Positions 3,389-34,029 of a DNA stretch of 64,000 bases are shown in pieces. How positions within the stretch are numbered: the stretch's first letter is position 1; every line of letters begins with the position of its first letter. This DNA comes from an uncultured Chloroflexus sp. (GTDB lineage: Bacteria; Chloroflexota; Chloroflexia; Chloroflexales; Chloroflexaceae). The notes under the pieces are model-generated. The model did not search any database and was not told the origin of the DNA. It worked only from the letters and a program-made list of their open reading frames with translations. Where the stretch lies: positions 1 through 64,000 of the forward strand of contig NZ_CAKZNK010000094.1 in the NCBI RefSeq assembly GCF_937129525.1, given 5' to 3'. Made by a program: the position numbers and the translations under genes.

Positions 3389-3793
3389 TCAGTCCTCAGC
3401 CGATCGTAATGTGACCAAATACGCCACCAGCGCTTCGATCTGCGCTGCGCGCAAATCAGTGCCATAGGTGCGCGGCATCAGACCTGCCGGATAACCGGGT
3501 GTGAGCGCGGCGTCGGGATCAACGATCTCGCGCCGCAGCCACTCAGCCGCGCTGAGACCCTCTCCATTGTTGACCGCTCGCGCGCCGATGCCGGCCAGCG
3601 GCGGGCCGAGCGCCGTCGGCCCGGCTGGATCGAGGCTGTGACAGCCCAGGCAGTAGATGCGGTAAACGCGCTCGCCTTCCGCTACCGGATCAGGTGGATC
3701 AGCACGCTGGCAAGCGCTCATGATGCTGATGAGCGCGATCAGCGCGAACCAGCTTCCAATTCGGCAATAAGTTGATCGAGTTCGGCCAGCCAT
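3389..3793 (-). CDS. membrane-anchored c-type cytochrome, single haem
   Basis: A 134-residue protein. Residues 14-28 form a hydrophobic export segment ending in MSAC, a possible lipobox, so it is probably a lipoprotein on the outer face of the membrane. The haem-binding CLGCH motif is near residue 48-52. A Met-containing stretch (AGLMPRTYG near 104-112) could supply the sixth ligand. The C-terminal helix [12 protein letters not shown] is typical of class I cytochromes c. Its start codon lies inside the 3' end of the NAD synthetase gene (55-bp overlap) and no other in-frame ATG/GTG/TTG precedes the export segment, so translational coupling is likely. The redox partner is unknown. Confidence 0.85.
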
Positions 3794-5817: not shown

Positions 5818-5886
5818 AGTGGAAAGGGCGATGTCACCATCGTCCGTAGTGCTGGTAGAAAAGCAGTTACTCGATAACCCCTTCAC

Positions 5887-5916
5887 AGTATACCGCGCCG
5901 GGCAGACGCTGTACAA
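5887..5916 (-). promoter_or_regulatory. putative sigma-70-type promoter for nadE
   Basis: On the minus strand, TTGTAC (5916-5911) is separated by 18 bp from TATACT (5892-5887). This predicts transcription starting near 5880 and a leader of roughly 60 nt before ATG 5817. The site lies in the 236-bp divergent gap between nadE and the dehydrogenase gene. No equally good plus-strand promoter was found there. Confidence 0.5.
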
Positions 5917-6053
5917 TAGAGGTATGGTGAAGTTGACGCTACGCTGCAATGACGCAACATTTTCGTTTGAGGAGCGATCAATTTGATCGTTCTGGATGAA
6001 ACGATCTTTTTTACGTTGTTGCGCAGCAGCGGTTTGAATGAAAGGAGCGCGCG

Positions 6054-8778: not shown

Positions 8779-8810
8779 CCATCGACTTGCAACAACGACA
8801 AGGAGCATCC

Positions 8811-10391: not shown

Positions 10392-10470
10392 CACGGCGCG
10401 CTATGCTACAATTGGCGCTTAGGCCGCACAAAGTTGAAGCGGCGCAGAGCAGCATTGAGGAGCGGCTGCA

Positions 10471-12258
10471 ATGTTTCGTACAGTATTGGTTGCGAATCGG
10501 GGCGAAATTGCCCTGCGGGTGATGCGGGCCTGTCGCGAATTGGGCTTGCGGTGCGTAGCTGTGTACTCTGAAGCCGACCGCGATGCGCCGCACGTAGCCT
10601 ATGCAGACGATGCTTATCTGATTGGTCCACCATCACCCGCCGAAAGCTATCTCAATATCGAGGCGATCCTGCGCGCTGCCAAAGCCACCGGAGCCGAGGC
10701 TATCCACCCCGGTTATGGCTTTCTGGCTGAAAATCCCAGTTTTGTGCGCGCAGTAACGGCTGCCGGACTGGTCTTTATCGGGCCGCCAGCCGAAGCAATG
10801 GAGCGGATGGGAGGCAAGACAGCAGCCCGACGCGAGGCAACGGCAGCCGGGGTACCGGTAGTGCCCGGTGTGCTCGAACCGGTCAGTGATGCAGCCGAAG
10901 TGCGTCGATTGGGCAAAGAGTTTGGCTACCCGATTGCGATTAAGGCTGTCGGTGGTGGCGGAGGACGCGGGCTGCGCGTGGTGCGCTCGCCGGAAGAGGT
11001 CGATGAAGCGTTTGCTTCAGCTCGACGAGAAGCCGAAGTTGCGTTTAAGAATGGCGAATTGTACGTTGAAAAGTACCTTGACGATCCGCGCCATATCGAG
11101 ATTCAGGTGCTGGCCGATGGTTACGGCAATGCCGTATCCCTCGGCGAACGCGATTGCTCGGTTCAGCGTCGCCATCAGAAGCTGATCGAAGAATGTCCAT
11201 CACCGGCTCTCACTCCCGAATTGCGCGCCGAGATGGGCGCTGCCGCCGTTCGACTGGCAAAAGCAGTTGGCTACGTTAGCGCCGGTACGCTCGAATTCCT
11301 CTTTCAGGATGGGCGCTATTATTTCCTCGAAATGAATACACGCATTCAGGTCGAACATACCGTAACCGAGATGGTTTACGGCGTCGATCTGGTGGCAGCG
11401 CAGATCCGGATTGCGCAAGGCGAGAAGTTATGGCTCAGGCAAGAAGACCTGGCGCCGCGCGGTCACGCCATCGAGTGCCGGATCAATGCCGAAGATCCGC
11501 TGCACAACTTCCGTCCCGCTCTCGGCGCAATTGGTGAATACCGCGAGCCGGTTGGGTTAGGTGTGCGCGTTGATAGCGGTGTGCGGGCCAACTACACGGT
11601 GCCATCGCACTACGATTCGCTGCTGGCCAAGTTGATCACCTGGGGCGCCGACCGCAAAGAGGCGATTGCCCGCATGCGACGAGCGCTGGCCGAGTTCCGG
11701 ATCGAAGGGGTGACAACCATCATTCCCTTCCACCAGGCCGCGCTCGAACATCCGGTGTTCCTGGCCGGCGCAGCGACGGTGAATTTCATTCCACGCCATC
11801 CCGAGTTACTTGCGCGCACTGCCGAACTGATGCCACCAGCCTCGCCACTGCCAACCGAACCGGCTCAAGAACCCCGTCGGTTTACGGTAGAAGTAAATGG
11901 TCGTCGGTTTGGGGTGGCCGTCTTTGGCGATGGACTGAGTCTGACCTCTGCTCAGCCGACGAATCCGGCACGCAATTCTGCCCCGCGCCGCGTCTCCCCA
12001 CGCAAGACGACACTCAACGCGCCAATTGATGGTGTCATCAGTCCGATCCAGGGCCGCGTTGTGGCAGTGCGGGTGGCCCACGGCCAGCAGGTTGAAGCCG
12101 GTCAGGTGCTCTTCATCGTCGAAGCGATGAAGATGGAGAATGAGATTACCGCTCCCCATAGCGGTACGATTGGCGAAGTGCGCGTTGAAGTGGGTATGAC
12201 GGTCGAAGCCGGAGCGGTGCTGGCAACCTTCAAGCCGGCATCCAACACGGCAGAGTAG
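10471..12258 (+). CDS. acyl-CoA carboxylase alpha chain: biotin carboxylase fused to BCCP
   Basis: 595 residues. Residues 1-450 are a complete biotin carboxylase: VLVANRGEIALRV at the N-terminus, the glycine-rich ATP loop KAVGGGGGRGLR near 160, ERDCSVQRRHQKLIEE, and EMNTRIQVEHTVTE near 288-301. After a proline-rich linker (about 455-520) comes a biotinyl domain with the biotinylation motif EAMKMEN near residue 552. Such fusions form the alpha chain of acetyl-/propionyl-CoA carboxylases. In Chloroflexus those reactions are central to the 3-hydroxypropionate bicycle, although this copy cannot be assigned to it from sequence alone. No carboxyltransferase gene lies nearby. A GAGGAG site supports the start. 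Confidence 0.92.
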   Translation: MFRTVLVANRGEIALRVMRACRELGLRCVAVYSEADRDAPHVAYADDAYLIGPPSPAESYLNIEAILRAAKATGAEAIHPGYGFLAENPSFVRAVTAAGLVFIGPPAEAMERMGGKTAARREATAAGVPVVPGVLEPVSDAAEVRRLGKEFGYPIAIKAVGGGGGRGLRVVRSPEEVDEAFASARREAEVAFKNGELYVEKYLDDPRHIEIQVLADGYGNAVSLGERDCSVQRRHQKLIEECPSPALTPELRAEMGAAAVRLAKAVGYVSAGTLEFLFQDGRYYFLEMNTRIQVEHTVTEMVYGVDLVAAQIRIAQGEKLWLRQEDLAPRGHAIECRINAEDPLHNFRPALGAIGEYREPVGLGVRVDSGVRANYTVPSHYDSLLAKLITWGADRKEAIARMRRALAEFRIEGVTTIIPFHQAALEHPVFLAGAATVNFIPRHPELLARTAELMPPASPLPTEPAQEPRRFTVEVNGRRFGVAVFGDGLSLTSAQPTNPARNSAPRRVSPRKTTLNAPIDGVISPIQGRVVAVRVAHGQQVEAGQVLFIVEAMKMENEITAPHSGTIGEVRVEVGMTVEAGAVLATFKPASNTAE

Positions 12259-13160: not shown

Positions 13161-14186
13161 ATGCAGCTTGCGCTTCTTCGTACTCGTATGCAACCACTTG
13201 CCGCCGAATATCCCGCGTGGGCTGGATACGCCCATCTCACTGCCAGTCTACCGCCGCCGGTGATACGCGATCCGGCGCAGCCACTGGTCAGCATCGTAGT
13301 GCCCTCGCTCAATCAGGGGCGTTACATTGGCGCAACGTTGCAGAGTATTCTTAGCCAGAATTATCCCAACCTCGAAGTGTGGGTTATTGATGGCGGTAGC
13401 AGCGATGAAACGCTCGCCGTGCTCGACACGTTCGCCGGCGACGACCGCATTCAGATTGTCACCGGCAAGGATGCCGGTCAGGCCGATGCAATCAACCGGG
13501 GTTGGGCGCGAGCGCGGGGATCTGTGCTGGCGTGGCTCAATAGTGACGACACCTACCTGCCGGGCGCCATTGCTGCACAGGTTTCAGCCTTACAGTCTCA
13601 CCCAGGAGCGGTTGCTGTTTATGCCAGCGCTCGCTATATCGACGAGCAGGGACAGGCGTTGCGAACTGTTGCCGCGCGACCCTACCACCCATTGTCGTTG
13701 TTGCGCTTACTCATCCCGATCCAACCGACTGTCTTTGCGCGCCGGGCAGCGGCTGGACTCACCGGCCCGCTCGACCTGACGATGCGCTATGCGCTCGATA
13801 CTGCCTACTGGGTACGGCTGATTCGACATGGCCCGATGCTACAGGCCCCCGGCATTGTTGCCACTTACCGGCTCCATGCCGCTTCCAAAACCGTCGCGCA
13901 GTTTAGCGGTTTCTACCGCGAATGGCTCCAGATTGCCGAACAGTTTTTTGCTGCGCATCCAGGCTTACGACCGGCGCGACCGGCTGTGCTGGCCGATATT
14001 TATGCGGCAATGGCCAATCTCGAGGCGCGCAACGGCGCCCTCGGCGCGGCTGTGCGCTATGCCGTCTACGCGCTCACACTGGCCGGATGGCGACCGAGGC
14101 TGGCCAAAACGCCGCTGGCGCTCCTCGATCGCGTGCTTGGGAGCGATGTTGCCGATCGGATCGGTAGCTGGTGGGGACAACGCTAG
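13161..14186 (+). CDS. GT2 family glycosyltransferase
   Basis: 341 residues. From about residue 40 the GT-A fold is clear: PLVSIVVPSLNQGRYIGATLQSILSQNYPNLEVWVIDGGSSDET, then GKDAGQADAINRGWARARGSVLAWLNSDDTYLPGA. SDD near 128-130 is the metal-binding DxD-like motif. A downstream helix-rich region (about 255-341) has no membrane segment. The enzyme transfers a sugar from a nucleotide-sugar donor; the acceptor is unknown. The start at 13161 has no strong Shine-Dalgarno site, and ATG 13188 is an alternative. It converges with the CrtI-like gene, 83 bp apart. Confidence 0.88.
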   Translation: MQLALLRTRMQPLAAEYPAWAGYAHLTASLPPPVIRDPAQPLVSIVVPSLNQGRYIGATLQSILSQNYPNLEVWVIDGGSSDETLAVLDTFAGDDRIQIVTGKDAGQADAINRGWARARGSVLAWLNSDDTYLPGAIAAQVSALQSHPGAVAVYASARYIDEQGQALRTVAARPYHPLSLLRLLIPIQPTVFARRAAAGLTGPLDLTMRYALDTAYWVRLIRHGPMLQAPGIVATYRLHAASKTVAQFSGFYREWLQIAEQFFAAHPGLRPARPAVLADIYAAMANLEARNGALGAAVRYAVYALTLAGWRPRLAKTPLALLDRVLGSDVADRIGSWWGQR

Positions 14187-16102: not shown

Positions 16103-18610
16103 TTACCGCCGCGCGCGATAGATCACCACTTCATCCTGCGCGAAGACCACCTCACCAACCTGGGCCAGCGCGGCCAGACTGGTCGCGGGATACATTTCAC
16201 GCTCAAGCGCGCCGATGTAGATGTAGTCGATGCGGTATCGGGCAAGCAGCGATCGAATCTGATCAAGATCGCCGCTACGGTAGATGGTATCAACTGCCAG
16301 ACAGCGCGGGCCAAGTTCGGCAAGGGCTACCGGATCGCCGCTACGCCATTGTATTTCGTGGCCTGTCCAGCCCAACACGGTGGCAAACCCGCTGGCAGCC
16401 GCGACACCACCGAAGCCCTGCCAGTTGTACGAACCGCCACAACGCGGCGATTCACTGCCCGCTGCAACCGCGGCGGCATTCTCGACCGCCGCCGCCTCGA
16501 GCACCACGCTGCCAGCGGGTATATTGCGGCGCAGCCAGGCAATGGATGCCGCTCCAGCGGCAGTTTGCTCACGCGGTGTGTACCCATTGAGGCCATAGAG
16601 CGGCGCGCGACCAAGATCACGTATGACGAGATATGGATAGACCAGCGCTCCCACCAGGAGCAGACCAAAACCAACACTGCCCAGACCAGATAGCCACCGT
16701 CGCCAGCCCGTCGCTGTCGCCCACATCCACCACAACCCAACCGGCGCCAACAGGCCCCAGAGCAGCCAGACCTGATAGTAGAATTTGAAAACCGTGTTCA
16801 CCCGGTTTTCGAACAAATCCCGAATGTAGACGAATTCTACCCCGCAGAGCACGACGCTGCCGACGGCGATGATGAGCATCCCGAAGCGGAAGCCGATTTC
16901 CCGCTCATGCAACATGCGCCACACCGCAACGCGCGCCAATCCGAATAACCCTAGCAAGGGAAACCCTATGAGCAAGCCGAAGGCCAGCAGGAAAAGCGGC
17001 AACCACCATAGCCAGCGTGGAATTGATGAGCCGGCTAAGGAATGTTCATCCGATGGCCGGTAGAGGCAACCGCCAATGATGATCGGCACTGCCATCAGTC
17101 CAAAGATGATGACAAACTCGTGCCAGCCACTCCGTTCGCCCAGGTAAATGCCGATCACACTGGTGAGCCGGCTAATGATTGGTATATCAAGCCAAGGGGT
17201 TGATCCACCTACCGGTGAGCGAAACGTCAGATGAAACGGCAAGTAGAGCACAAAGGCGAGCACGGTGATGATAACCGTTGGGCGCAACCACATTCGCCAC
17301 GGAAACGGAGCATGGCAACGTTGCAAGGCGAGCGCAATCCCTCCCCAGTAGAGTAGCAGGTAGCTCGGGAGATCCCAACTGTTGATGACGTACAGACTTC
17401 CGAGAATGACTCCGTGCAGGAGGCGCACCAGCCAGCCGGCCCGCCCTTCAGGGAAGAGGATCGGCGGCTTAACCGATTGCAGCGCATCCGGTGACGATGG
17501 CTCATTGGCGCGCGCTGCCACCTTCGCCTGACCAACTGCCGCAACCGCCAGCGCCAATCCGATTGCCAGCGTCGTGAAGGGTAATGCCATCACATGCGGA
17601 TGCATGTCGCCGAGACGAAAACTGAAGAAGGGAAATTCGGTAATAGTGTACTTCTGCTCGTAGCGCGGCGGATCGCCAGCAATCCGGTACCCATCCCACA
17701 GCGAGCGCGACGGCCACCACCAGTTGAAGTCTTGCCATTTGTCAGCCCGCGGCCAGCCCTCCACCGTGCCGAAATCGTAGGCGGCAGTCTGGAGGGGGTA
17801 CGGCAATGTGATAAATGTTTCACCGCGCCAGGCCTGGCTCAAGACAGCCACTAACTGGCGGTCATCAAGGGCAACGGCCCGTTCGTCACCGGTGATAACC
17901 TGAATGGCGCCTGATTGATTGCCGGCGAGCAGGACGATAATCACGCCGAGCGCGCCAAGGGCATTCCGCACCAGCGCCGGGGGATGATGATGAAGCAGTC
18001 GAAGGATGGTGTTGATCACCCCGTAACCGCCTTGCGCCGTCATGCCGGCGAGCAAGGCCAGGGATAGATTGTAAGCCGTCGCCGGTGGCAAACCACTCAA
18101 CATCGCCGGAACGGCCATGAGCAGGTAGCCGAAATAGTAGTAGTTGATGCTGTATCCCGCCAGCCATGGATCGTGTGGTGGGAAGAAGCCACTATGCTGA
18201 ATGGCGTTGAAGAAGGCGAAATCCATTGGGCGTTCGGTGCCCCACGGAATGGGTTCGCGCGCCCGCAACCAGACCACGCCGAGCAGAGTGATGAGAAAGA
18301 TCGCTTCCCCGACCAGCGCATCACCGAGCGGGGGTAGTCGGCGATGCCCGCTGCGCCAGAGCCAGATCCAACCGCTACCGGCAACGATCAGCAGACAGAT
18401 GATAATGAGCGGTAGATCGAAGCGACTAAGGCCGAGCATGGCCAGCAACCACGCCAGAAAACCGGTCACCAGTAAGCCGAGCGGACGGGCAAAGACAAAC
18501 CCGCTCCCTGGTAGATGGACGAAGATACGGTAAGCGATCGGCCAGCCGATCCAGGCGAAGAGCTGGGCGATCAACCACCAGATCAGGACATCACCAGCCA
18601 ACGTTCTCAT
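16103..18610 (-). CDS. DUF2298 (YYY) polytopic membrane protein, single copy
   Basis: 835 residues from ATG 18610, chosen because an AGGAG site lies 6 nt upstream; ATG 18643 would add 11 residues. It has about a dozen hydrophobic helices. Hallmarks of the Chloroflexi/archaeal YYY family are all present: ERPMDFAFFNAI, a GYSINYYYFGY motif near 150, ITEFPFFSFRLGDMHPHV, MNTVFKFYYQVWLLWG near 610, and a C-terminal soluble part with AASIAWLRRNIP and YRIDYIYIGALEREMYP. These families are thought to be GT-C-like membrane glycosyltransferases or lipid-sugar handling proteins, but the activity is undemonstrated. It lies 72 bp downstream of the giant YYY gene and is probably co-transcribed with it. Confidence 0.88.
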   Translation of the reverse strand: MRTLAGDVLIWWLIAQLFAWIGWPIAYRIFVHLPGSGFVFARPLGLLVTGFLAWLLAMLGLSRFDLPLIIICLLIVAGSGWIWLWRSGHRRLPPLGDALVGEAIFLITLLGVVWLRAREPIPWGTERPMDFAFFNAIQHSGFFPPHDPWLAGYSINYYYFGYLLMAVPAMLSGLPPATAYNLSLALLAGMTAQGGYGVINTILRLLHHHPPALVRNALGALGVIIVLLAGNQSGAIQVITGDERAVALDDRQLVAVLSQAWRGETFITLPYPLQTAAYDFGTVEGWPRADKWQDFNWWWPSRSLWDGYRIAGDPPRYEQKYTITEFPFFSFRLGDMHPHVMALPFTTLAIGLALAVAAVGQAKVAARANEPSSPDALQSVKPPILFPEGRAGWLVRLLHGVILGSLYVINSWDLPSYLLLYWGGIALALQRCHAPFPWRMWLRPTVIITVLAFVLYLPFHLTFRSPVGGSTPWLDIPIISRLTSVIGIYLGERSGWHEFVIIFGLMAVPIIIGGCLYRPSDEHSLAGSSIPRWLWWLPLFLLAFGLLIGFPLLGLFGLARVAVWRMLHEREIGFRFGMLIIAVGSVVLCGVEFVYIRDLFENRVNTVFKFYYQVWLLWGLLAPVGLWWMWATATGWRRWLSGLGSVGFGLLLVGALVYPYLVIRDLGRAPLYGLNGYTPREQTAAGAASIAWLRRNIPAGSVVLEAAAVENAAAVAAGSESPRCGGSYNWQGFGGVAAASGFATVLGWTGHEIQWRSGDPVALAELGPRCLAVDTIYRSGDLDQIRSLLARYRIDYIYIGALEREMYPATSLAALAQVGEVVFAQDEVVIYRARR

Positions 18611-18682
18611 AGCCTGCTCCTGTGCTGCCTGCATCTGCGCCATCCCCGCTTACTCTGCGCAGACCCTCGCGTAACGAGACGA

Positions 18683-21600
18683 TCACGGCTGTCCTCCGCC
18701 AAGCCTGTTTATCATTCGCTGCGCTTCATCAGCCCACGGCCCATCGGGCGCCAGTTGCAGATACCGTTGCAAGGCGTCTCTGGCCAGAGTGGTTTGATTA
18801 CGCAGCATAAAGAGACGGGCCAGTTGAAAGTAGGGGTCAGGCAAAGCTGGATCGGTGCTCATCGCCTGCCCCAATGCAAGCTCGGCTTTATCGAGCCAAC
18901 CCCAATCGATCAATGCAGTCGCCAGTTTGTTGTAATTACCTGCGGTTGGACTGGCCTGAATTGCGCCCAGATAAGCCTGTTCGGCTTCATCATACCTGCC
19001 CGCTTCAGCCAAAATATCGCCCCAGAGATGATGCAAGCCAACGTCGCCGGGATTGGCAGCAGCGGCAGGAGCTAACACCTGCGCCGCTTCATAAAGCCGT
19101 CCCTGACGGCGGTAACCTTCCGCCAGAGCAAAGGCAAATTGAGCATTGGTCGGTTGTGCCGCAACGGCAGCTTCCAGCTCAGAGAGATCAATGGTCGGTT
19201 CGTTGGGTGGCGGTGGAAGAGGCGGCTGCGCAACCGGTAACGGATCGGCGCGCAACAGACGATAGCTGTCCGGCAGATTGGCAACCGCGTAGATTGCTAC
19301 GCCGTCTTGTTCATAAACCGGACGCAAATAACGGTCGCGCAAGACCATCAATTTCTCAAGGCCCTGTGGGTAAAAAGCGCGCTCGACACCGCCAACATAG
19401 ACATAATCAACATCATAGCGGGCCAGAATGCGTAATGCCGTTTCCGGGTCGGTGGTGGTGTAAAAGGCTTCGACATCACGCACTCGCCGCCCCGTCACTA
19501 TCGGATCACGCTGTTCATCGGCATGCAACGCGCTGATCACTGTCGGCAAACCGGTTGCCGCAGCGATGCGAATGCCGTAGGCCCGATAGAACCACAGGCT
19601 CGACTGAAGTACAATCGGCGTGCCGTCGATCTGCTGATTGAGCCAGCGGATCGCCGCTGCGTCACCGCTCAAATCTACCTGTACCATCGTGGTATTCGGC
19701 TCACAGCCACCAAAGGCAGCGCAGTCATAAGTAAAGCTGGCCTGTTCCATGAAAGCCATTCCATCGAGGGTTGGGCCAATATCAACCGGGAAGCGCGTGA
19801 CCAGCCGCGATGGAATGGCTACCGGCGCATAGCTGGCTGCTATCAGCGCCGGCATAGCGATTGCGACCAGGGCTACTCTGACCGCTGCTTGCCCGCCCCA
19901 CTGGCGCGCCTGATGGAACAATCGCGGCAAAAGACCGGCAGCGGCCAGGCCGAGTAATGTCCAAACGTGCATGCCAAATTTAAAGACGGTGTTCATGCGA
20001 TACCAGTCGCTACCGTCGAGATGGTCGCGAATGTAGACCACTTCCACGCCGAGCGAAATAGCCCACGCCAGCCAGCTTAGCAATAGCGCATACCATGCCG
20101 GCGCGCCGGTGGCTCGTCGCACCAATAAGGTGGTGGTGAGGATTAACAAGATCAGCAAACCCAGTCGCAACGCCCAGGCCGGCAACGCCGCGCCAATAAT
20201 GATCGTTATTCCGATCACGCTTAACATCAGTGTCCCTAAACGTACCGGCACGAGGCGCTGCCAGCGCCGCGCTGCCGCGCCGATGATAACCGGGACAACG
20301 ATAACGAGCGGCAAACCGTACACCAGCAGATAATCGAACGGTAAAGTGACGTGACTGGTCACCAACCCAATCCCACCTACCATCGGCCAGTAGCGGTCGA
20401 AGAAGGGGGCAAAGAGCAAGAGCGAGCCTATTCCCAATCCAATCGCTTTGACCGCCGCCAGCGCAATTGCCTGCCAGCGCCAGCCATCACGCCGCGCGGC
20501 GCCGGCGACAATTGACAAACCGGCAAGCAAACCGTAGGTGGGGAAATCCCACGAATTGGTGACTGCCAGCGTCCCCAGAGTCAACGCCATGAGCGCCCAG
20601 GTTGGCGCAACGCGGAGCAGAGAAGACTCCGCTGAGGAGTTCCCAACCGGGGTTGTTAGCCGACCGGCTTGCTGTCGATTGAGCAGAATCAATTGCCATG
20701 CGCAGGCAATTGCCAGCAGCGAGAGCGGGAGCGCAATCAGGTGTGGATGCAGGTCAGCGTAAAGGAAACTGAACAGCGGAAACTCATTAATCGTGTAGGG
20801 GATCACCCGACTCGGCCCGACAAACCAGTCGCCGAGCAGCGCGGCATTGCCACTCAACAGCAAGCGCAACCCGTTGGCGCCTTGCGACCAACCCGCTGCG
20901 ATCAGGCTGGTCAGATTGCCAACCAGTCCGATCAGCGCAGCAGCCAGTATCCCGTAGCGTCGTCGGCCAGCCAGTCGCGCGCCCAGCTCATACGCGCCGG
21001 CCAACAACATACCGAAGAGTGTCGCCAGGGCCAGATTGAAACCGATCGCCGAATCAAGACCGAGAAGCTTGATCGGCAGCGACATGAGATAGAGACCGTA
21101 GTAGTAATAGTTGATGTAGCCGTTACTGTAGAAAGGATCATAGGGCGGCATCACCGGACTGCGCAAAATGGCGTTGAGGAAGCCCTGCTCCATCGGCTTT
21201 TCGCCACCCCATACCGGGTGCCACAGATCGGGGTTGAGCGCGCGGATGCAAACCATCGCGGCAAAGCCGGCCAGGAAGACAACTTCACCTGGGATAACAG
21301 TGCGCCACGCAGCGCGATCGGGCCGCGCACCGATCAGCCATAACGCCAGCGCAATGACCGCCATCACCACCAGACCAACTGTCACCCCTACCTGATCGTA
21401 GCGCCAGAGACCGAGACTGACAGGCAACCAGATTGCGTAACCGAGCATGATCAGGCCAACCGGTCGCGCCCATGCCAGCCCCCATCGCCCCAACGCAGCA
21501 TAAGCCGGCAGCGCACCCAGCCCGGCAATCAGATACCAGACCAGCAGCCACACGATGACCGCCAGCCACTGCTGTTCGCCAAGCAGAGTATTCCAGCCTA

Positions 21601-24600
21601 ACCGACCAACTGCCGGCAGTTCGTTCACCGGCTGCATCAATTCCAGTGCCGGAATAGTACGCGCGCTCGGTGGTCGAATCGGCAGATCGCTGGTGAGCAT
21701 ACGGGGCTGACCCGGCTCGCGCACACGGTAGAGAACACTCTCACCCTGCCGGAAAACAAGGTCAAGATCCCCGCGACCGACAAGCGTCGCGAATTTGGCT
21801 AATCCTTCCGCGCTGTAAAGCTGTCGCTCCACGCCGCCGACATACACATATTCCACACCGTAACGGCGCAGAGCTGACAGCGCGGTATCGGGATCGGGCG
21901 TATTGTAGATGGTGGCGATGATCTGCTGCCGATAACCGATCACCGGCCCGGCCTGCACTGCGCTGCGCTGCTGGATCTGATGCCACTCCCAACCGAGCAA
22001 GGTGGGCATGCCGGTAAAGGTGGCAATCCGTCCGGCCCACTGGTACGAAGGCTGGTGCGCTTCGAGAATGATCGGGGTGCCACGCGCATTGCGGCGCAAC
22101 CAGTCAATTGCCGCCGCGTCTTCATCGAGCGAATAGGCCGCGCCGTTACGCGCTGCGGTGATGTTGGTGAAGAACGCCATGCCGTCAAGCGAGCGGGGCG
22201 CAGTCGGATCCCAGCGGTCGGCAATCCGGGCCGGCGTGGCAGTGATGGGGTAGACCAATCCGGCAGCCAGCAGCCCGCCGACAACCAGGCGAACAATCCA
22301 GCGGCCCTGGACAGCCAATCGTTGCGTCGCCATCCATAACCACGGCAAAACGACTGCCGTTGCCAGCGCCAGCAGCATCCAGGCATGCAGGCCGAATTTG
22401 AAGACGGTATTCATCCGCCCGACATCGCCACGCACCACCACCACTTCAACCAGAACCCACAAGCCCAACCCGCCGAAGGCAAACAGAGAAGTGATGAGAG
22501 TGGTTGCTGCATGATGCCGAATCTGCCAGATGATCCACGCCGCCACTGCGATCAGGGCCAGCAACGGGATAAGAGCCGGCAGATCGAGGGCCCATCCGAC
22601 CAGCAGGATTGCAACCGGCCCGATCACGAGCAACAGATTATATCCGCGCCGCCACAGCCAAACCCCGATCACGGCCAGCCAAACTGCCAGCCAGTGACCG
22701 CCGATTTGCAGCAGTTGACCGGTTGAGGTACGTTCAGCCGTGATAACGGTCTCAAGCAAGGTCAAACCCTGCCCACTCCAGAGTTCGATCCCACTTGACT
22801 CGGTCACAAAACTGGCAATGAAGGGAGCAAAGAGCAGATTACCCAGCAGCGCCGGCGCGGCTCCGACAGATGCAGCAACCAGCGCCGTCGCCGGCCAACC
22901 ATGCCCCGCTCGCCGCCAGCGCCGCCCCGTCGCCAGGGCCAGCATCAACCCGGCCAGACCCACAAACACCGGGTAATCCCAGGTGTTCGTAGCCCTGATC
23001 GCGCCCGCAACCACTCCCAATCCAGCCACGATCCACCACTGTCCTGATGCTCCCTGACGCCACCAGGCCAGCGCCAGACCCAGCGCAGCCAGACTGAGCG
23101 GCATGACTATCATGTGCGCATGCAAATCGGCAAACAGGAAGGTAAAGAAGGGGAATTCATTGATTGTGCCGGGAGCGATACGAGTTGCATCCCAGAAAGC
23201 CCACTCGTAGCGCCCTTTGGCTACCTGTTCAGCGGCATAGCCGCTGACGAACCAGCCGGCTTGGGCGAGATTGCCGATCAGCAGCATTAAGACCGGCGCC
23301 AGTATACCGGAGAGCAGCGCTACCCGTTCGCGCCGACGGAGCGCCGAGTGCGCAGCTAACAGGTTGTAGACGACTCCGAATGCCCCTAGCGCTGTGAGAG
23401 CGAAGATCGTGGCAACGCCAAGATTGTAACCAACCGCCGGCGCGACCCCGCTAAGATGGATCAGCGTTCCTACCAGCACAAACCCGAAATAGTAGTAGTT
23501 GATGTAACCACCGGCATGCCAGGGATCGAGCGGCGGGAAGGCCGCGCTACGCAGAACTGCATTGAGGTACGCGAAATCCATCGGCTTCTCGCCACCGCGC
23601 GCCGGATGCCAGAGATCAGGGTTGAACCAGCGGAGAGTCAGACCGAAGAGCAAAAACCCGATAAAGAGGATTTCAGCGACGAGTAACGCCGTTTGTCGCT
23701 CTTGCCAGAGTTGGCGCAATGCATCGCGATTGCGCCAGCCAGCCACTACTCCTATCCCCAGCACGATGAACCCAATCGTCCAGAGAGTGACCGGGGCAAA
23801 TGGCGCAAGCCGCAGGCTTCCGGCCAGCCAGGCCAGATACGCCACCAGCAGCAACGCCAGAATCCTGGTCAGCGAGAAGCCGTAGTCAGGCAAACGGCGC
23901 AGGCGCGGCCCGATGACGGCAAAGACGGCCAGCCCCAGCGCTTCAATCCAGAGCACCCACAACAGCGGCGAAAAAGGATTCGTTCCTAACCACGCCCACC
24001 ACTCTCCACCCGCAGCGTACTGCGGCCAGACACTCTCGGTCAAGCGGAGCGCAGTCGGATTACGGTCAGCAATTCGCACCGGCGACTTGTAGACTTCACC
24101 CCACTCAACATCGCCGGTGATGAGTTGTTCCGCCCGTTCCCGGCTGTACAACGGCGTCTTGCGAAAGATTAACACTCGTGGATGGTCGTAGACGCTAAAT
24201 GCCTCTTCAGCCATCCAGTCAGGAATGCGGATGCCGAGGATGGTAGGGTATGAGGTAATCTCTGCCGCTAGCTCGAAGCCCAATTCGCCGGTAAACAGGC
24301 TGTGGTAGTAACGCATCAATGCCGGATAGCGCATGCGCAGACGCGATGTGCTATCGTAGACGCGGTTGCTGGTCAGAGTGATATAATCCGCTCGATCGAG
24401 CTGGTCGAGCAGACCAGATTCACCGTTACTACCAAAATACTTAGCCGGCTCATCTTCGGCGTAGGGCGATGAATCGATCCCAAAGAAGGTGACATTCCAG
24501 GCTGCCGTTGACGTTGCCTGCAACGGCAGCGGATCATCCCAGCGTTCGGAAATGATATAGCTACCCGGCGGCGCATGCTCGGCCAGCCATTGCGCTGCCT

Positions 24601-26263
24601 GCACCCGCGAGTGGGGCACGGTGTAGATGCGCGAGAAGGCGTATGCCCAGAGCGCGGTCGCAATCAGCGTCACCGGCAGCGCCAGGCGAACAATCCACGA
24701 CAGCGTTTTGAGTACGCTTGTCCGATACCTTGATTGTCGTGCCGGCGCTGTCTCGTCTGACCATAGTTGACTGCGGCGCATACTGTTGTGGACGTACCAT
24801 CGGCGTCCCCACCGGGCCGATACCATCAACCCCCACGCTGCCAGAACGATCAGCGCGCCGTAGATCGGCAGCAGATAACGCATCGTAATGGCAAATTGAT
24901 TGCCCTGCCATGCAAAATAGAAGGCGATCCAGATCCAAAGCACCCAGGCCGGATGCCATGGCCTTCCTGCCAGCGGTGATGGGCGCAGCGCCCACTGCCA
25001 GCCGCGCCGCACATAGCGGGCCGCAAAGAGCAGCCAGCTCCCCCAGGCAGCCAGACCAAGCAGCGGCCCCATTCCCCACAGCACCATATTCATCCAGGGA
25101 AAGAGATAGGCTGGCCGGCCCACCCATTGTTGGCTGGGGGGAAAGTCGTACTCACCCGTCACCAATGCCTGCACAGTGATCAGGTTTTCGCGAAAGCGAG
25201 GATCGAGACGGACATCGAAGAAACCGGCTCCGTGCAGTGACGATGGGCCATCAATGAAGGGAGAGTCGGCGCCTGAGCCGATGAACGAGTCGGGCGCAAT
25301 GGCGCGGAAAGTCAGCAGCGTGACAATGCCGGCCATCACTAACAGCCAGATCTCACGCCGCATCAGGCGGTCGAACACAGCCAACCACGATTGGCCACGC
25401 AACGCCCGCTGCGCCGCAATGAGAGCAGCAGCAATCGCCAAACCGCCGATGGTCGCCATCGTGATCCGGTTAGCCATTGCCAGGCCGATGCTCACCCCCA
25501 GCGCCAGGTACACACCCACGCTGCCACCCTGCGCGGCCCGCACCGTCCAGTAGAGCGCCAGCAAACAGAAGAAGGTAGAGAAGGCCGGATCAACAAAGAA
25601 ATGGCTCTGCTGGATGTGCATGACGGTGAGAGCGGCCAGCAACGCGGCGAGCAACCCCACTCGACGACCAAACAGGCGTCGCCCGATCAGATAGACGAGG
25701 GCGACACTGCCGAGATCGAAGATCACCGCCAGGCTCCGACCGACGTTCACGATTTCGCCATAACTGGTCAGATTGACGCGGTCGGGATTCAACCACTGTA
25801 TCAGCGGATCGAACCGTGGCCAGTTTCGTTCGGGATTAGCCGTCGGCGCGCCATAATCGGTTCGTCGTTCGGCAGGCGCTGACGGATCGGCGCCAATGCG
25901 CGGCGGCCCGGCAATGGTCGGCACTTGCGCCGGCAAAGCTTCGGCTGGAGTGAGCATGACCGCTACCGCGCGCGTCATCATGATCGGCAGTGGCCCGTAG
26001 ACATAGAGGGGGAACTGCTCGTAATTACGTGGATTGAGCGGCGAGCGACTCGAGTCATAAAACTCGCTCAGGCTCTGCGGCATGCGAACAGTTGAAGCGA
26101 CATACGTAAAGAAGCGTTCGTCGGGATGCTGGCCGGTGCCTGAGTCCCAATCAAAGAGGTTCAGCGCGCGGAAGTAGAGCGCAAGCAGTAAAATAGCTGC
26201 CAGCCCTAGGCGGGCAACCCATGCGCGGTATCGGATGAAAGCCTGTCGCACGGCGATTTCCAC
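18683..26263 (-). CDS. giant fusion: GT-C (GT39-like) + two DUF2298/YYY domains + TPR tail
   Basis: 2526 residues in one uninterrupted frame. Residues 1 to about 760 look like a PMT/GT39-type GT-C glycosyltransferase: a first transmembrane helix, then the acidic loop DWDSGTGQHPDERFF near 38-52, many further helices, and a soluble part with VQAAQWLAEHAPPGSYI. YYY copy 1 (about 770-1520) has GYINYYYFGF near 917, INEFPFFTFLFADLHAHM, MNTVFKFGLHAWMLL near 1283 and YVYVGGVERQLY near 1474. YYY copy 2 (about 1550-2340) repeats these at about 1714, 2089 and 2288. Residues 2357-2526 are TPR repeats. The start is GTG 26263 with no clear ribosome site, so it is uncertain by a few codons. Probably envelope glycan or lipid-sugar assembly (inference). 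Confidence 0.88.
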   Translation of the reverse strand: MEIAVRQAFIRYRAWVARLGLAAILLLALYFRALNLFDWDSGTGQHPDERFFTYVASTVRMPQSLSEFYDSSRSPLNPRNYEQFPLYVYGPLPIMMTRAVAVMLTPAEALPAQVPTIAGPPRIGADPSAPAERRTDYGAPTANPERNWPRFDPLIQWLNPDRVNLTSYGEIVNVGRSLAVIFDLGSVALVYLIGRRLFGRRVGLLAALLAALTVMHIQQSHFFVDPAFSTFFCLLALYWTVRAAQGGSVGVYLALGVSIGLAMANRITMATIGGLAIAAALIAAQRALRGQSWLAVFDRLMRREIWLLVMAGIVTLLTFRAIAPDSFIGSGADSPFIDGPSSLHGAGFFDVRLDPRFRENLITVQALVTGEYDFPPSQQWVGRPAYLFPWMNMVLWGMGPLLGLAAWGSWLLFAARYVRRGWQWALRPSPLAGRPWHPAWVLWIWIAFYFAWQGNQFAITMRYLLPIYGALIVLAAWGLMVSARWGRRWYVHNSMRRSQLWSDETAPARQSRYRTSVLKTLSWIVRLALPVTLIATALWAYAFSRIYTVPHSRVQAAQWLAEHAPPGSYIISERWDDPLPLQATSTAAWNVTFFGIDSSPYAEDEPAKYFGSNGESGLLDQLDRADYITLTSNRVYDSTSRLRMRYPALMRYYHSLFTGELGFELAAEITSYPTILGIRIPDWMAEEAFSVYDHPRVLIFRKTPLYSRERAEQLITGDVEWGEVYKSPVRIADRNPTALRLTESVWPQYAAGGEWWAWLGTNPFSPLLWVLWIEALGLAVFAVIGPRLRRLPDYGFSLTRILALLLVAYLAWLAGSLRLAPFAPVTLWTIGFIVLGIGVVAGWRNRDALRQLWQERQTALLVAEILFIGFLLFGLTLRWFNPDLWHPARGGEKPMDFAYLNAVLRSAAFPPLDPWHAGGYINYYYFGFVLVGTLIHLSGVAPAVGYNLGVATIFALTALGAFGVVYNLLAAHSALRRRERVALLSGILAPVLMLLIGNLAQAGWFVSGYAAEQVAKGRYEWAFWDATRIAPGTINEFPFFTFLFADLHAHMIVMPLSLAALGLALAWWRQGASGQWWIVAGLGVVAGAIRATNTWDYPVFVGLAGLMLALATGRRWRRAGHGWPATALVAASVGAAPALLGNLLFAPFIASFVTESSGIELWSGQGLTLLETVITAERTSTGQLLQIGGHWLAVWLAVIGVWLWRRGYNLLLVIGPVAILLVGWALDLPALIPLLALIAVAAWIIWQIRHHAATTLITSLFAFGGLGLWVLVEVVVVRGDVGRMNTVFKFGLHAWMLLALATAVVLPWLWMATQRLAVQGRWIVRLVVGGLLAAGLVYPITATPARIADRWDPTAPRSLDGMAFFTNITAARNGAAYSLDEDAAAIDWLRRNARGTPIILEAHQPSYQWAGRIATFTGMPTLLGWEWHQIQQRSAVQAGPVIGYRQQIIATIYNTPDPDTALSALRRYGVEYVYVGGVERQLYSAEGLAKFATLVGRGDLDLVFRQGESVLYRVREPGQPRMLTSDLPIRPPSARTIPALELMQPVNELPAVGRLGWNTLLGEQQWLAVIVWLLVWYLIAGLGALPAYAALGRWGLAWARPVGLIMLGYAIWLPVSLGLWRYDQVGVTVGLVVMAVIALALWLIGARPDRAAWRTVIPGEVVFLAGFAAMVCIRALNPDLWHPVWGGEKPMEQGFLNAILRSPVMPPYDPFYSNGYINYYYYGLYLMSLPIKLLGLDSAIGFNLALATLFGMLLAGAYELGARLAGRRRYGILAAALIGLVGNLTSLIAAGWSQGANGLRLLLSGNAALLGDWFVGPSRVIPYTINEFPLFSFLYADLHPHLIALPLSLLAIACAWQLILLNRQQAGRLTTPVGNSSAESSLLRVAPTWALMALTLGTLAVTNSWDFPTYGLLAGLSIVAGAARRDGWRWQAIALAAVKAIGLGIGSLLLFAPFFDRYWPMVGGIGLVTSHVTLPFDYLLVYGLPLVIVVPVIIGAAARRWQRLVPVRLGTLMLSVIGITIIIGAALPAWALRLGLLILLILTTTLLVRRATGAPAWYALLLSWLAWAISLGVEVVYIRDHLDGSDWYRMNTVFKFGMHVWTLLGLAAAGLLPRLFHQARQWGGQAAVRVALVAIAMPALIAASYAPVAIPSRLVTRFPVDIGPTLDGMAFMEQASFTYDCAAFGGCEPNTTMVQVDLSGDAAAIRWLNQQIDGTPIVLQSSLWFYRAYGIRIAAATGLPTVISALHADEQRDPIVTGRRVRDVEAFYTTTDPETALRILARYDVDYVYVGGVERAFYPQGLEKLMVLRDRYLRPVYEQDGVAIYAVANLPDSYRLLRADPLPVAQPPLPPPPNEPTIDLSELEAAVAAQPTNAQFAFALAEGYRRQGRLYEAAQVLAPAAAANPGDVGLHHLWGDILAEAGRYDEAEQAYLGAIQASPTAGNYNKLATALIDWGWLDKAELALGQAMSTDPALPDPYFQLARLFMLRNQTTLARDALQRYLQLAPDGPWADEAQRMINRLGGGQP

Positions 26264-29814: not shown

Positions 29815-32800
29815 TTAATCGACCGTTTCGTTGCCCCACACCTCAACCGTAACATTGCCGCGCTTACCACTCCACAACGGCACACGACAGGTGTCGCGCA
29901 AAAGCTGTTTCCAGAGTTGGGCGTGCTGAAACACCTCTTCATCGCTGGCGAAGAGCTGAAAGACAGAGCGGGCAGCGATCAGGATCAGCTTGTGACGGGC
30001 GCGACTGAGGGCAACGTTCAAGCGACGCGGATCAAGCAGGAAGCTGCTGGCGGCGCGGAGATAGTCAGGATCGCTCTCGGTCGCCGAGAAGATGATCACA
30101 TCACGCTCACCACCCTGAAAGCGCTCGATAGTGTCCACCGTCGCGCCTTCATGTTCGATCAGGAGCTGCTTTATGAGATCAGGCAACTGTTCGCGCAATA
30201 TCAACCGCTGTGCGCGGTGTGGCACGACAACCCCGACACCGCTGCTAGCATCGAGACCAAGCTGACTGACCAGCGCCTCAATCAGCGGCTTGATCAGGCC
30301 AATCTCAAAGTGATTGACATCCTGACTCTGGGCTTCGTCATGCGTGATCACAACCAACGGATGGTTTGGGTTGAGCGCAGCGGCAACCAGTGGATCGTTT
30401 AATTGAGCGGCTGCCAGCGTCGTTATGCGGCGCGAGAAGTATGGGATCCCATCATGTTCGTAGATCGCGCGACGCAAAAAGGCAGCCAGGTCGCGATGCA
30501 CCCGGAAACTCTCAACCAGTCGGACAATTGGCGGCGGCGGGTCGAGGGCAAGCAGCGTCTCAAACAGCGATGCGTAGACACGATAGGCGTGAAAAGTGCG
30601 CCGCCGCTCGCCTCGCCATTCATACTGCACAATCGGCGGCATCTGACGGTGATCGCCAACCACGATCAGGCGTCCGTCAGGGCGCAGCGCAATCGCTGCC
30701 ATACAGGCTTCAGCCAGGTTCATCTGGGACGCTTCGTCAAGTACCAGCAAGTCGGCGAAGGGATCAGTATGGTATTGCTGATCGCGCTTGAGGAGTGACG
30801 CTACCGCGAACGGTGTGGCAGCCACAAAGCAGGCTGTCGCTCCCTGGATCGGATTGATACGATCGATCACGTTCGCGGTTGGCGGCAGATCGGCGCCTTC
30901 TTTAGGCCGTACACGAAAGAGAGGAACTGTTAGCAATCGCTCATCGAAATATTCAGCAAACAGCGCCGGTTGCTTAGCCTGGATCTCGGCCAGCTTCTGC
31001 TGTACCTCAGCAACCTTGCGCAACAGCACATCAGTTGCGGCATGCGTTTTGCAACTGAGCAGCACGCGACAGCTTTGGCCAGCAGCCAGTAAACCTTGCA
31101 TGCGGGCCAGCAAGGCAAAGGCCGAAGTATAACTCTTGCCGGTGCCGGGTGGCCCTTGCACTAACAGCGTGGGCGCGTCGCCGTGGCCGATAATGTAAGC
31201 ACTCTGATGCTCATCAAAAGAATGCAACAATTCCGCTTCAGCCAGCTTGCGCAGCCCCTGACCAAATCGCTCATGCCCGGCCATCGCCGCATCTGCTACC
31301 TGCGCCTTTACGCTTTGTGGATCGACCAGACGGGCATAGAGTGCATTCGCTGCTCCTTGCTGCAACTCATTGACGATCTCCAGACAGCGCTGACCGTAAA
31401 TATCGTTCGGATCGGCCTCAATCGTATACAGTTCACCATCTTGCGGCCACTTCCACTGCGATGGGAAGGTAAAACGCCGGTCGCCATTGCTGTAACGCAG
31501 ATCTGGCTTAAGCGCAATCATCCCGTCCGGTTCGATCTGCAACAGTGTTGCCCGCGGCTGAAAGAGGATCTGGCGGGCAGTGGTAGTAAACCGCTCGCGC
31601 TGATCGGGAGGTAGCCGTTCATCGACACTCCAGCGCGGCGCAAGGATCACCTTATCGCCAGGGGAGAGATCCGTCAGCCGCAACACCGTCTCTCTATCGC
31701 AATCTAACCCACTCAGGTCGAGCCGAAAGCGCAACGGCACATCAGGCAACGGCAGCGGGTCGGTCTCTCGTTTTTGCTCGGGTTTCAGCCGCGCTCGTTT
31801 ACGCCCACCGGTCAACTCAGCCCGCAACGCCTGACGACGCTCATTTTCTGCCAGTGTCTCCAGCAATTTCGGATCCTGGTCTGCGTGATGATAGCGCGCG
31901 ATCAGACTTACTCCGGCCAGCACGCGCTGTTCAGGAGGCGGCAGATGCTGTTGCCCCCAAGTGATCAGCGCCACGTAGCGCTCGATGAGCAAAAACTCGG
32001 CCAGCGCAGCGGCCAGAGTACGCGCCTGACGGGTATAGGCAGCAATGCGCGAGAGATCGAAAGCAGGCTTCGTGGTGCGATCATTGCGCGGCAACCCTTC
32101 AGCTAACAGCGCCAGCGCCTCCAACCGCTTTCGCGCGAATCCGATCACCTCCGACAACTTCACCTGCCGGTAATCGATCAGAGGATCGTCGCCGCGATCG
32201 GGTGGCGGTGGCAAAGCGTTCCACGCCGCGTAGAGATATTCGAGCGGAATCTGGTTGTTGAAACGAATGCGACGGGTATACCAGCCAATCGTCCTATCGT
32301 TGCTGAGATCGTCGAAGACACGACGGTAGAAACGGCGACGATATTCACCCCAATCAAAACCGTAGGTGCGCGCCAGCCGAGCCAGCGAGTCGTAGGCCAG
32401 CGGGTCGTTGCGGAAGCGTCGCCGTTCGTTTACCAGCACTGTCACCATTGGCGCCTCAAACCCGGCGCTCTGCGCGGCCAAATCGTACAGTGGCGTCGCG
32501 CCACAGACCACAGGATGGCGGGCCAATCCATCGAGCAGCGTGTGCAAAGCAAACGAATCGGGCACAACCAGATGGATCGGCGCTTCCAGTTTGCCATCGG
32601 CAGCAGGGCTAGCCTGCTCGAGAATGGCCTTGAACAACTCATTAAGCCACGCTTCCAGCAACGCCCCCTCATCAGCCAGCGATTGCGGCGGCTGATCAAG
32701 CGATCTGATCACAAACTGCGGCTGTTGTGGTTGACCATCACGATACCCCATTACCATCGCGCCGAGCAGCACTAACATCCCCTGAGTATGGTCGTAGAGC

Positions 32801-34029
32801 GGATCGAGATAGACCACGATCAGGTTGGGATGCAAATCGGCGCTCACGGCAGGGAAGGAGCTATGCCCCTTGTAAGGCAAATAATTCAGCGCAGCGATCC
32901 GGTCGCCGCGCCAGCGCCGGAAAGCGCGGGCGCGATGGATCAGTTCATCGAGACGCGCAGCCAGCACCGGATGAGCGAGAAGTTCACCTATCTTCTGACG
33001 ATGATCTGCGGGTGTAATCAAACTCTCGCCGCTTAATTCCTTGAGCAGCGCCAGTTGTTGGGTAGTCACAATACCGCTGGCGCGCAACACCGACTTTTCT
33101 GGCTCGGTCAGCGATGGAATCAGCGAGAGATCGTCGTGTTCAGCCGCCCACCGCATACAGATCTCGTTGTACATGCAACCATCGCATTTCGCGGTAAGGT
33201 GAAACGGCAAGTCGGCAAACTGCGCCGCAGCGATAGCAGCCAGGATCGATTTGTCCCCATTCAGCCAGGTCTCAACTTCGGCCAGATACGGTTTCGGATC
33301 GGCGATCAGGGCAAGCTGAGCCGTTGTGACGCCGAGTAGCGTAACCGCCTGCTGCCGCTCAGTTTCAAGCCGTTGCCGCTCAGCCGGGGTTTGCAGCGAC
33401 GACAGCCATTCACCGCGGTAGAGCACACCAAGCTGGATCGAAGCCAGTTCAATATGATGATCCTCGGTGATGAGCTTGAGCAAACCATAGTAGCAAGCCA
33501 GTTGCAGGCAATGCTCGATCTTCGCCGTCGCCGAGCTTTTGGTATCGACGACAAGCGCATGACAGGCGCCAGTTTGATCGCGTTGCAACAGCAGCAGGTC
33601 AACATCACCGCTCATCGTCCAACCGTACAGCGGAGCGGAGAGGCGCGGCTGAAACAGAACCTGTGCCGCACCCGGTGTTAATCGCTGGAACTCCTCCACC
33701 ACGATATGATTGTGATCGTCGGTCGTAAACTTCGGATCACCTTGCTGCCGGCGTTGCGCGCAATGGATCGCCTGTGGAAAACGATTGCGCACCTGTTGTT
33801 CGACTGCCTGTTCAAACTGTCGCCCGGCTACCGTCAACATTGGCGAAAGCGACTGGAGCGACAGCCCGTATCGCGGCAACCAGTTTAGCTCGCGGCGGCG
33901 CTCGTGCAGACGCAACCGCAAATAGCGCCGACACTGATCGAATCGTAAGAACTGGGCCAGATCGGTGGGAGAGATTGCCTGTGACTGCGTCGGATCAAGC
34001 GATATGGGCGGGAGATAGTCGTCGATCAT
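29815..34029 (-). CDS. Dna2-like fusion: RecB-type Fe-S nuclease plus SF1 helicase
   Basis: 1404 residues. The N-terminal part (about 1-300) is a PD-(D/E)XK nuclease of the TM0106/Cas4/RecB kind, with the active-site Asp in GDVDLLLL (near 137) and D-x-K in VVDTKSS (near 160). Cys33 (FDQCRRYL) and CDGCMYNEIC near 281-290 are placed to hold a [4Fe-4S] cluster. The middle (about 300-900) is unassigned; about 380-470 might be RNase H-like. The C-terminal helicase has Walker A QGPPGTGKSYTSA near 958, Walker B VLDEASQMNLAEA near 1097, GDHRQMPPIVQ, and a final SRARHKLILI motif. It probably acts in DNA repair or replication-end processing; a defence role cannot be excluded. Confidence 0.88.
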   Translation of the reverse strand: MIDDYLPPISLDPTQSQAISPTDLAQFLRFDQCRRYLRLRLHERRRELNWLPRYGLSLQSLSPMLTVAGRQFEQAVEQQVRNRFPQAIHCAQRRQQGDPKFTTDDHNHIVVEEFQRLTPGAAQVLFQPRLSAPLYGWTMSGDVDLLLLQRDQTGACHALVVDTKSSATAKIEHCLQLACYYGLLKLITEDHHIELASIQLGVLYRGEWLSSLQTPAERQRLETERQQAVTLLGVTTAQLALIADPKPYLAEVETWLNGDKSILAAIAAAQFADLPFHLTAKCDGCMYNEICMRWAAEHDDLSLIPSLTEPEKSVLRASGIVTTQQLALLKELSGESLITPADHRQKIGELLAHPVLAARLDELIHRARAFRRWRGDRIAALNYLPYKGHSSFPAVSADLHPNLIVVYLDPLYDHTQGMLVLLGAMVMGYRDGQPQQPQFVIRSLDQPPQSLADEGALLEAWLNELFKAILEQASPAADGKLEAPIHLVVPDSFALHTLLDGLARHPVVCGATPLYDLAAQSAGFEAPMVTVLVNERRRFRNDPLAYDSLARLARTYGFDWGEYRRRFYRRVFDDLSNDRTIGWYTRRIRFNNQIPLEYLYAAWNALPPPPDRGDDPLIDYRQVKLSEVIGFARKRLEALALLAEGLPRNDRTTKPAFDLSRIAAYTRQARTLAAALAEFLLIERYVALITWGQQHLPPPEQRVLAGVSLIARYHHADQDPKLLETLAENERRQALRAELTGGRKRARLKPEQKRETDPLPLPDVPLRFRLDLSGLDCDRETVLRLTDLSPGDKVILAPRWSVDERLPPDQRERFTTTARQILFQPRATLLQIEPDGMIALKPDLRYSNGDRRFTFPSQWKWPQDGELYTIEADPNDIYGQRCLEIVNELQQGAANALYARLVDPQSVKAQVADAAMAGHERFGQGLRKLAEAELLHSFDEHQSAYIIGHGDAPTLLVQGPPGTGKSYTSAFALLARMQGLLAAGQSCRVLLSCKTHAATDVLLRKVAEVQQKLAEIQAKQPALFAEYFDERLLTVPLFRVRPKEGADLPPTANVIDRINPIQGATACFVAATPFAVASLLKRDQQYHTDPFADLLVLDEASQMNLAEACMAAIALRPDGRLIVVGDHRQMPPIVQYEWRGERRRTFHAYRVYASLFETLLALDPPPPIVRLVESFRVHRDLAAFLRRAIYEHDGIPYFSRRITTLAAAQLNDPLVAAALNPNHPLVVITHDEAQSQDVNHFEIGLIKPLIEALVSQLGLDASSGVGVVVPHRAQRLILREQLPDLIKQLLIEHEGATVDTIERFQGGERDVIIFSATESDPDYLRAASSFLLDPRRLNVALSRARHKLILIAARSVFQLFASDEEVFQHAQLWKQLLRDTCRVPLWSGKRGNVTVEVWGNETVD

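Follow-up and report, generated by a model that had tools for sequence, protein, structure and literature searches.

The window, the whole stretch of 64,000 nucleotides that was analysed, comes from a filamentous photosynthetic bacterium of the genus Chloroflexus and carries an open frame of 2526 codons with a GTG start on the minus strand. The original prediction gave this single frame exactly, leaving out the strand, and divided its product (the megaprotein) into a PMT/GT39-like glycosyltransferase, two complete DUF2298 (YYY) modules, and a TPR tail. Profile searches bear out the two modules and the tail. TIGR03662 (Chlor_Arch_YYY) matches the megaprotein twice, with 1398.6 bits in all (E 0) and 731.1 and 686.9 bits per module, above the curated cut-off of 300.25. 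Pfam DUF2298 (PF10060) also matches twice (E 1.3e-256), with 443.6 and 436.6 bits per module, above the curated cut-off of 27.8. The motifs YINYYY, INEFP..DLHxH, RMNTVFKF, and YVYVGGVER are found in the predicted order in both modules, YYY1 and YYY2, and TPR models match residues 2357-2519. The TIGR03662 entry presumably already describes the N-terminal region, the two YYY copies, and the TPR repeats; to our knowledge, it gives no function.

The original prediction considered that the frame might be an assembly artefact joining separate genes. This is rejected, since the whole frame recurs in six other genomes of the genus, with stop-to-stop lengths of 2501-2525 aa. A seventh genome of the genus, 82% complete, has only a fragment of the frame. 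YYY1 is 83% identical in a C. islandicus contig.

The gene directly downstream, missed by the original prediction, encodes a third complete YYY module (YYY3; 675 bits with TIGR03662 and 385 bits with DUF2298). A profile search of the genome finds exactly three DUF2298 matches, all of them at the megaprotein and YYY3. We compared the positions of N-fused YYY genes and nearby same-strand genes for a single YYY protein in 58 pairs: in 38, the two genes overlap or are at most 50 bases apart, and nine have an exact four-base overlap; this set counts several genomes twice and includes a few pairs with other genes between. Given this spacing, the megaprotein and YYY3 are probably made together. The genes around the pair in the window are not glycan genes, except for one GT2 glycosyltransferase gene on the opposite strand near the YYY3 gene (13161-14186, plus strand). 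The window also encodes a 1404-aa protein with PD-(D/E)XK nuclease and AAA helicase domains according to Pfam (29815-34029, minus strand).

Table 1 Features of the megaprotein locus and of two related loci. Unprefixed positions refer to the window.
Feature	Position	Strand	Basis
Megaprotein gene (N-terminal GT-C, YYY1, YYY2, TPR tail)	18683..26263	-	Open reading frame and profile matches
N-terminal PMT/ArnT-like GT-C module (residues 1-740)	24044..26263	-	PMT_2, predicted model, structural matches
D48-E49, acidic pair in first external loop of N-terminal module	26117..26122	-	66/66 rows with a letter, 1 gap
YYY1 module (residues 757-1521), DUF2298/TIGR03662, class M1	21701..23995	-	Profiles, tree, predicted model
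Three predicted extra TM helices before YYY1 core (residues 765-844), topological adapter	23732..23971	-	Model helices, charge profile
E892, start of first-external-loop helix, YYY1	23588..23590	-	148/148 modules; 54/55 in a smaller alignment
NYYY (residues 922-925), family-naming motif	23489..23500	-	N, Y923, and Y924 in 53/55 modules; Y925 in 55/55
DxHxH (D1046, H1048, H1050), end of external loop 2, YYY1	23114..23128	-	148/148 each
RMNTVFK (R1283-K1289), short last external loop before core TM12	22397..22417	-	R1283 and N1285 in 148/148
YYY2 module (residues 1560-2333), class M2	19265..21586	-	Profiles, tree
TPR tail (residues 2334-2526), putatively extracytoplasmic	18686..19264	-	TPR models, hydrophobicity
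Third, stand-alone YYY protein (YYY3), 846 aa, class S	16103..18643	-	TIGR03662, clade S; 39 bases downstream of megaprotein
Decayed first YYY modules, motifs lost, ends kept	L051:8929-10935, L052:8363-10426		

A Pfam scan of the whole protein lists nothing over the N-terminal part at E 0.01. When the N-terminal ~760 aa are scanned alone, they match PMT_2 (E 1.1e-12, 48.8 bits, cut-off 26.1). The AlphaFold model of this part, built from a 67-row alignment, has a pLDDT of 91.7. Its closest structural match is Pmt2 (6p25_B; Z 26.7, 426 residues, 4.4 Å), followed by Pmt4 and ArnT (5ezm, Z 24.5); for this model and for that of YYY1, matches below Z 8 are ignored. The PMT_2 match and the predicted PMT fold thus argue for the PMT/GT39-like character originally assigned to this part, and we take its putative topology from the PMT fold by analogy. 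Besides the acidic pair in the first external loop, an RY pair is invariant (67/67 rows). Compared with the sequences of solved chains, the N-terminal profile gives weak matches to Pmt1 (4.9e-5) and STT3A (0.026) and four poorer ones. Against the Agl23 family (TIGR03663), the module has no match at 0.001; its score is 16.2 bits (E 0.007), below the cut-off of 126.25 bits.

The AlphaFold model of YYY1, built from an alignment of 148 modules, has a mean pLDDT of 95 and a pTM of 0.95. The best structural match is yeast STT3 (8agb_A; Z 18.4, 477 residues, 7.0 Å), and further matches include ALG12 (Z 15.9), ArnT (Z 14.7), and AftA (Z 13.9). The best 43 of the 50 structural matches listed are to GT-C enzymes, the C-terminal domain of AglB, or a GPI-transamidase chain, which is GT-C-like. 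Foldseek alone matches the model to AftA (6e-6) and DPY19 (1e-5). The YYY profile gives six chance matches to the sequences of solved structures, the best at E 0.34. Alignment of YYY with the N-terminal part by hhalign gives E 3e-4 with a probability of 40% over the C-terminal half, and pairs RMNTVFKF of YYY with MRY-LPIY of the N-terminal part. The predicted models therefore place both the YYY module and the N-terminal part in the GT-C fold, with the Z scores speaking to fold and not to function. The original prediction hinged on modules having this fold and acidic residues, and both are found. Public predicted structures may already imply the fold of YYY.

Sixteen TM helices can be placed in each YYY module from the secondary structure of the model. 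Over the 148 modules, the K+R fraction is 0.195 in the eight inside loops and 0.065 in the nine outside loops (0.134-0.260 and 0.000-0.137 per residue by loop, respectively). Model helices and charge bias together suggest that the module has its N- and C-termini outside and consists of a three-TM adapter followed by a 13-TM GT-C core. The core would start inside and end outside, within the GT-C range of 11-13 TM; passages of PMC6801728 describe the same 13-TM core, N inside and C outside, for STT3, DPY19, and ALG10. The adapter of YYY1 is barely matched in the structural comparison with GT-C enzymes. Because the preceding module also ends outside, we infer that the adapter allows head-to-tail fusion.

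The TPR tail contains no hydrophobic segment (highest 19-residue mean, 0.82), and no TM segment separates it from the outer C-terminal domain. Since no hydrophobic stretch follows the last helix of YYY2, the tail should lie outside the cell membrane rather than in the cytoplasm, the side being assigned from the charge bias. In TMTC proteins, as described in parts of PMC7801869, a GT-C module is likewise followed by TPR repeats on the lumenal side.

The 148-row alignment derives from the 160 modules that remain of 188 after redundancy filtering; of the 12 modules left out, nine are near-copies from the genus, two are M1 modules that have decayed, and one is partial; partial modules with fewer than 640 profile positions are not among the 188. 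In all 148 rows, R878, E892, P910, Y923, Y924, R1028, E1036, P1038, D1046, H1048, H1050, R1283, N1285, F1288, W1295, and Y1407 (YYY1 numbering) are invariant. Position 896 is mostly D or E. According to the predicted topology, E892 is positioned in external loop 1, E1036 and D1046-H1050 in external loop 2, and R1283-N1285 in the short last external loop. The acidic residues that the original prediction expected in the first external loops are thus present and invariant, as E892 in YYY1 and D48-E49 in the N-terminal part. According to passages of PMC6801728, various GT-C enzymes require an acidic motif in their first lumenal loop, and a conserved arginine is located in short loop 6 of STT3 and DPY19.

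A search of plasmids for YYY finds one distant relative only, in Pseudobutyrivibrio (Lachnospiraceae). It keeps E892, D896, NYYY, E1036, DxHxH, D1096, R1283, N1285, and K1289, and it lacks R878, R1028, F1037, and W1295. The gene (L146:11917-14172) belongs to a polysaccharide gene cluster that also includes wecB, GT2 genes, and a gene for an O-antigen ligase.

YYY is present in 130 of 131 sampled genomes of the host's class. Across Chloroflexota, 278 of 399 sampled genomes have it; two archaeal control genomes carry it too, and the family is present in Haloferax volcanii. The survey of split and fused versions proposed in the original prediction reveals a clear pattern of single-fused, double-fused, and stand-alone forms. 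Outside the host's order, most genomes pair a GT-C-YYY protein of about 1400-1800 aa with a single YYY protein; inside it, GT-C-YYY-YYY-TPR takes the place of the former. Of the two-module proteins, 37 distinct ones have a readable end: 33 have a tail of more than 100 aa, of which TPR models match 32 and the remaining one is out of frame (L047); four have no tail of that length (L075, L096, L099, and L103). In L047, an Oscillochloris assembly, an apparent frameshift puts the TPR end out of frame, and the next YYY overlaps (2407-4326 and 2891-11482). Three MAGs labelled Singulisphaera (L080), Gracilibacteria (L083), and Acidobacteria (L128) carry YYY genes of the Chloroflexota type; the first two look misbinned or mislabelled, and the third is more divergent.

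In a tree of 160 modules, the labels for the first fused module (M1), the second fused module (M2), and the stand-alone module (S) change 3, 2, and 3 times, respectively, compared with means of 29.5, 30.3, and 40.1 after shuffling. Judged from this tree, the three classes separated long ago and form a clade each, and they keep a fixed order across the host's order. The classes differ at 12 positions where each is at least 80% conserved, several of them beside motifs: G/G/T by E892, W/F/W by D913-P914, and G/G/Y after VFKF (in the order M1/M2/S). We considered that L103, L096, and L099 might contain a fused stand-alone YYY and dropped this idea, as their second module groups with M2 and not with S.

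In one family of the host's order, NYYY, NEFP, DLHxH, and MNTVFK have been lost from the first YYY module of both aligned members, and only pieces of this module score in all six genomes, one of which has a fragment. In two loci of this family, YYY2 is intact and a separate gene of the PMT_2 cluster adjoins the fused gene; one of these loci has an intact YYY3 and the other a split one. The decayed first module indicates that activity can be lost while the place in the chain is kept.

Agl23 (TIGR03663) is present in 20 of 20 YYY-positive and in none of 20 YYY-negative Chloroflexota genomes. The positives are the first 20 YYY genomes outside the host's class with strong matches, with the weak-match genomes G136, G142, G146, G154, and G161 passed over, and the negatives are 20 listed of 121 YYY-negative genomes. 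The negatives fall in eight families, and relatedness therefore contributes to the co-occurrence. In at least six of the 20 positive genomes, Agl23 and YYY share a contig and are about 8 kb apart or less. Two adjacent Agl23 genes, one of them encoding an NHL propeller as well, are present in the own genome; they are on another contig than the megaprotein, which counts against the reading that we prefer below. L062 (2831-6199, plus strand) encodes a 1122-aa Agl23-like protein with a C-terminal NHL-repeat propeller, and a second Agl23-like gene adjoins it.

Near the YYY genes of 101 loci we find Agl23 (20), a PMT_2 protein (21), GT4 (22), and a methyltransferase (25), each family identified from one representative; these counts are neither independent nor complete, because several genomes appear twice (for example, L053/L141, L048/L087, L047/L074, L057/L082, and L061/L107) and many loci end early. 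A search of the own genome with STT3 PF02516 finds no clear oligosaccharyltransferase: there are two weak matches elsewhere, one at 25.1 bits with neighbours against 24.5, and none in the megaprotein. This, like the near absence of glycan genes around the pair in the window, speaks against the reading that we prefer below.

We propose, with a probability of roughly 0.6, that the two genes together code for four membrane glycosyltransferases of the GT-C type, which work at the outer face of the membrane with polyprenyl-phosphate sugars; together, the megaprotein and YYY3 probably make a cell-surface sugar chain. One chain would combine a PMT/ArnT-type GT-C module, two YYY-type GT-C modules, and an external TPR tail, and the next gene would supply the third YYY-type GT-C. 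Each active module would take a sugar from a polyprenyl-phosphate-sugar, which PMT-like Agl23 may help bring across the membrane, and pass it to a growing surface glycan or glycoconjugate. In such a module, the acidic residues of external loop 1 could serve as a base or metal ligand, E..DxHxH of loop 2 could hold a metal or phosphate, and RxN..K of the last loop could bind the lipid phosphate. The three-TM adapter would make the in-frame fusion of complete GT-Cs possible, and the outer TPR tail may hold an acceptor, a partner, or the stand-alone YYY3.

The original prediction went further and suggested that a repeated sugar is built on an assembly line. The three YYY classes form old clades of their own and have class-specific residues by the motifs; most likely, therefore, their transfers differ, and the fusion would then keep successive enzymes together. 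This distinctness, together with the fixed order, agrees better with a series of different steps than with a single sugar added repeatedly. Since each class has stayed in its own position, enzymes working in order are plausible, but no more than that: given the decayed module and the unfused relatives, it should not be taken for granted that every module takes part in a sequence. The full version, in which one polypeptide is a glycan assembly line running from the GT-C module through YYY1 and YYY2 to a TPR-docked YYY3, with different sugars from donors supplied by Agl23 and, as the product, a surface glycan common across Chloroflexota and perhaps shared by archaea, is one that we put forward tentatively and regard as doubtful.

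The alternative that survives best is that fusion only fixes stoichiometry and membrane location, with the modules independent or redundant and in no ordered line. It is compatible with our proposal up to the point of ordered action. The loss of first-module motifs in all six genomes of one family indicates that not every module need be active, and the wide occurrence of stand-alone and single-fused YYY indicates that fusion is not required; both favour such independence. Against it, the three classes stay separate in their fixed order, and all 16 residues tested are retained in 15 of 17 M1 modules, the exceptions being the two decayed modules. We regard independent modules as a real possibility, short of likely.

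It is rather unlikely that the system is a machine for protein glycosylation in the manner of the animal TMTC O-mannosyltransferases, with exported proteins recruited through the external TPR tail and glycosylated directly by the modules. The order of parts is that of TMTC in the portions of PMC7801869 that deal with it, and the N-terminal part is closest in fold to Pmt2. However, TPR tails are matched in 32 of the 37 two-module proteins and single-fused relatives end at YYY, which indicates that the basic function does not depend on the TPR; neighbours such as GT4, a sugar epimerase, and a methyltransferase suggest glycan building.

Agl23 bears on a further alternative. In the parts of PMC11182771 concerned with it, this protein is described as a putative hexose-phosphate-dolichol flippase, and the purified protein translocates M5GN2-PP-Dol in liposomes. 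Since Agl23 has a PMT_2 match and yet moves lipid-linked sugars, similarity to PMT does not by itself imply transferase activity. That the YYY modules handle or translocate lipid-linked sugars as flippase-like proteins, with only the N-terminal module transferring sugar, agrees with the strict co-occurrence in the 40-genome sample and with the suppression of rft1 loss in yeast by Agl23 (same parts of PMC11182771), but it is improbable given invariant acidic residues in loops 1 and 2 and a last-loop arginine at the catalytic positions of GT-C enzymes (as laid out in passages of PMC6801728), and three diverged copies per genome would be hard to explain.

Literature searches for DUF2298, TIGR03662, and YYY return one mention in a gene table and no functional study or member with a known activity; a match to "YYY domain" was discarded as the unrelated Y_Y_Y domain. 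The available portions of the AepG paper do not mention YYY, and searches on the envelope glycan of Chloroflexus gave nothing usable. If the proposal of four outer-face glycosyltransferases is correct, a domain without an assigned function that is present in most of the sampled Chloroflexota genomes becomes a testable enzyme family, through its predicted place in the GT-C superfamily, its invariant outer-face residues, and its strict partner Agl23. The megaprotein would be a natural fusion of complete GT-C enzymes, with the three-TM adapter giving a simple rule for such fusions, and the locus might belong to a pathway for surface glycans that has gone unrecognised in Chloroflexota.

Compared with known systems, the YYY module shares with STT3/PglB/AglB, DPY19, and ALG10 the predicted fold, the 13-TM core with N inside and C outside, the acidic residues of loops 1 and 2, and the arginine of the short last loop. 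It differs from them in the extra three-TM adapter in front and in the DxHxH of loop 2, and it has no convincing sequence match to any solved chain. The N-terminal module resembles GT39/PMT and ArnT in its PMT_2 match, its highest Z scores, and its invariant DE and RY. Unlike these enzymes, it is fused ahead of one or two YYY modules and has a large external domain after its last TM helix. As far as the relevant parts of PMC7801869 describe TMTC1-4, these proteins resemble the megaprotein in having TPR repeats after GT-C, on the lumenal side in TMTC and putatively outside in the megaprotein; they have one GT-C and about ten repeats, whereas the megaprotein has three GT-C modules and a short TPR tail, and we find nothing to suggest that the fusions share an origin. 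Agl23 shares the PMT_2 match and co-occurs strictly with YYY in our sample, but it is a separate protein and not part of the megaprotein. Finally, both fused modules and the product of the next gene are clear members of the TIGR03662/DUF2298 family, to whose description our analysis adds a predicted GT-C fold, a predicted topology, the three clades, and the Agl23 test.
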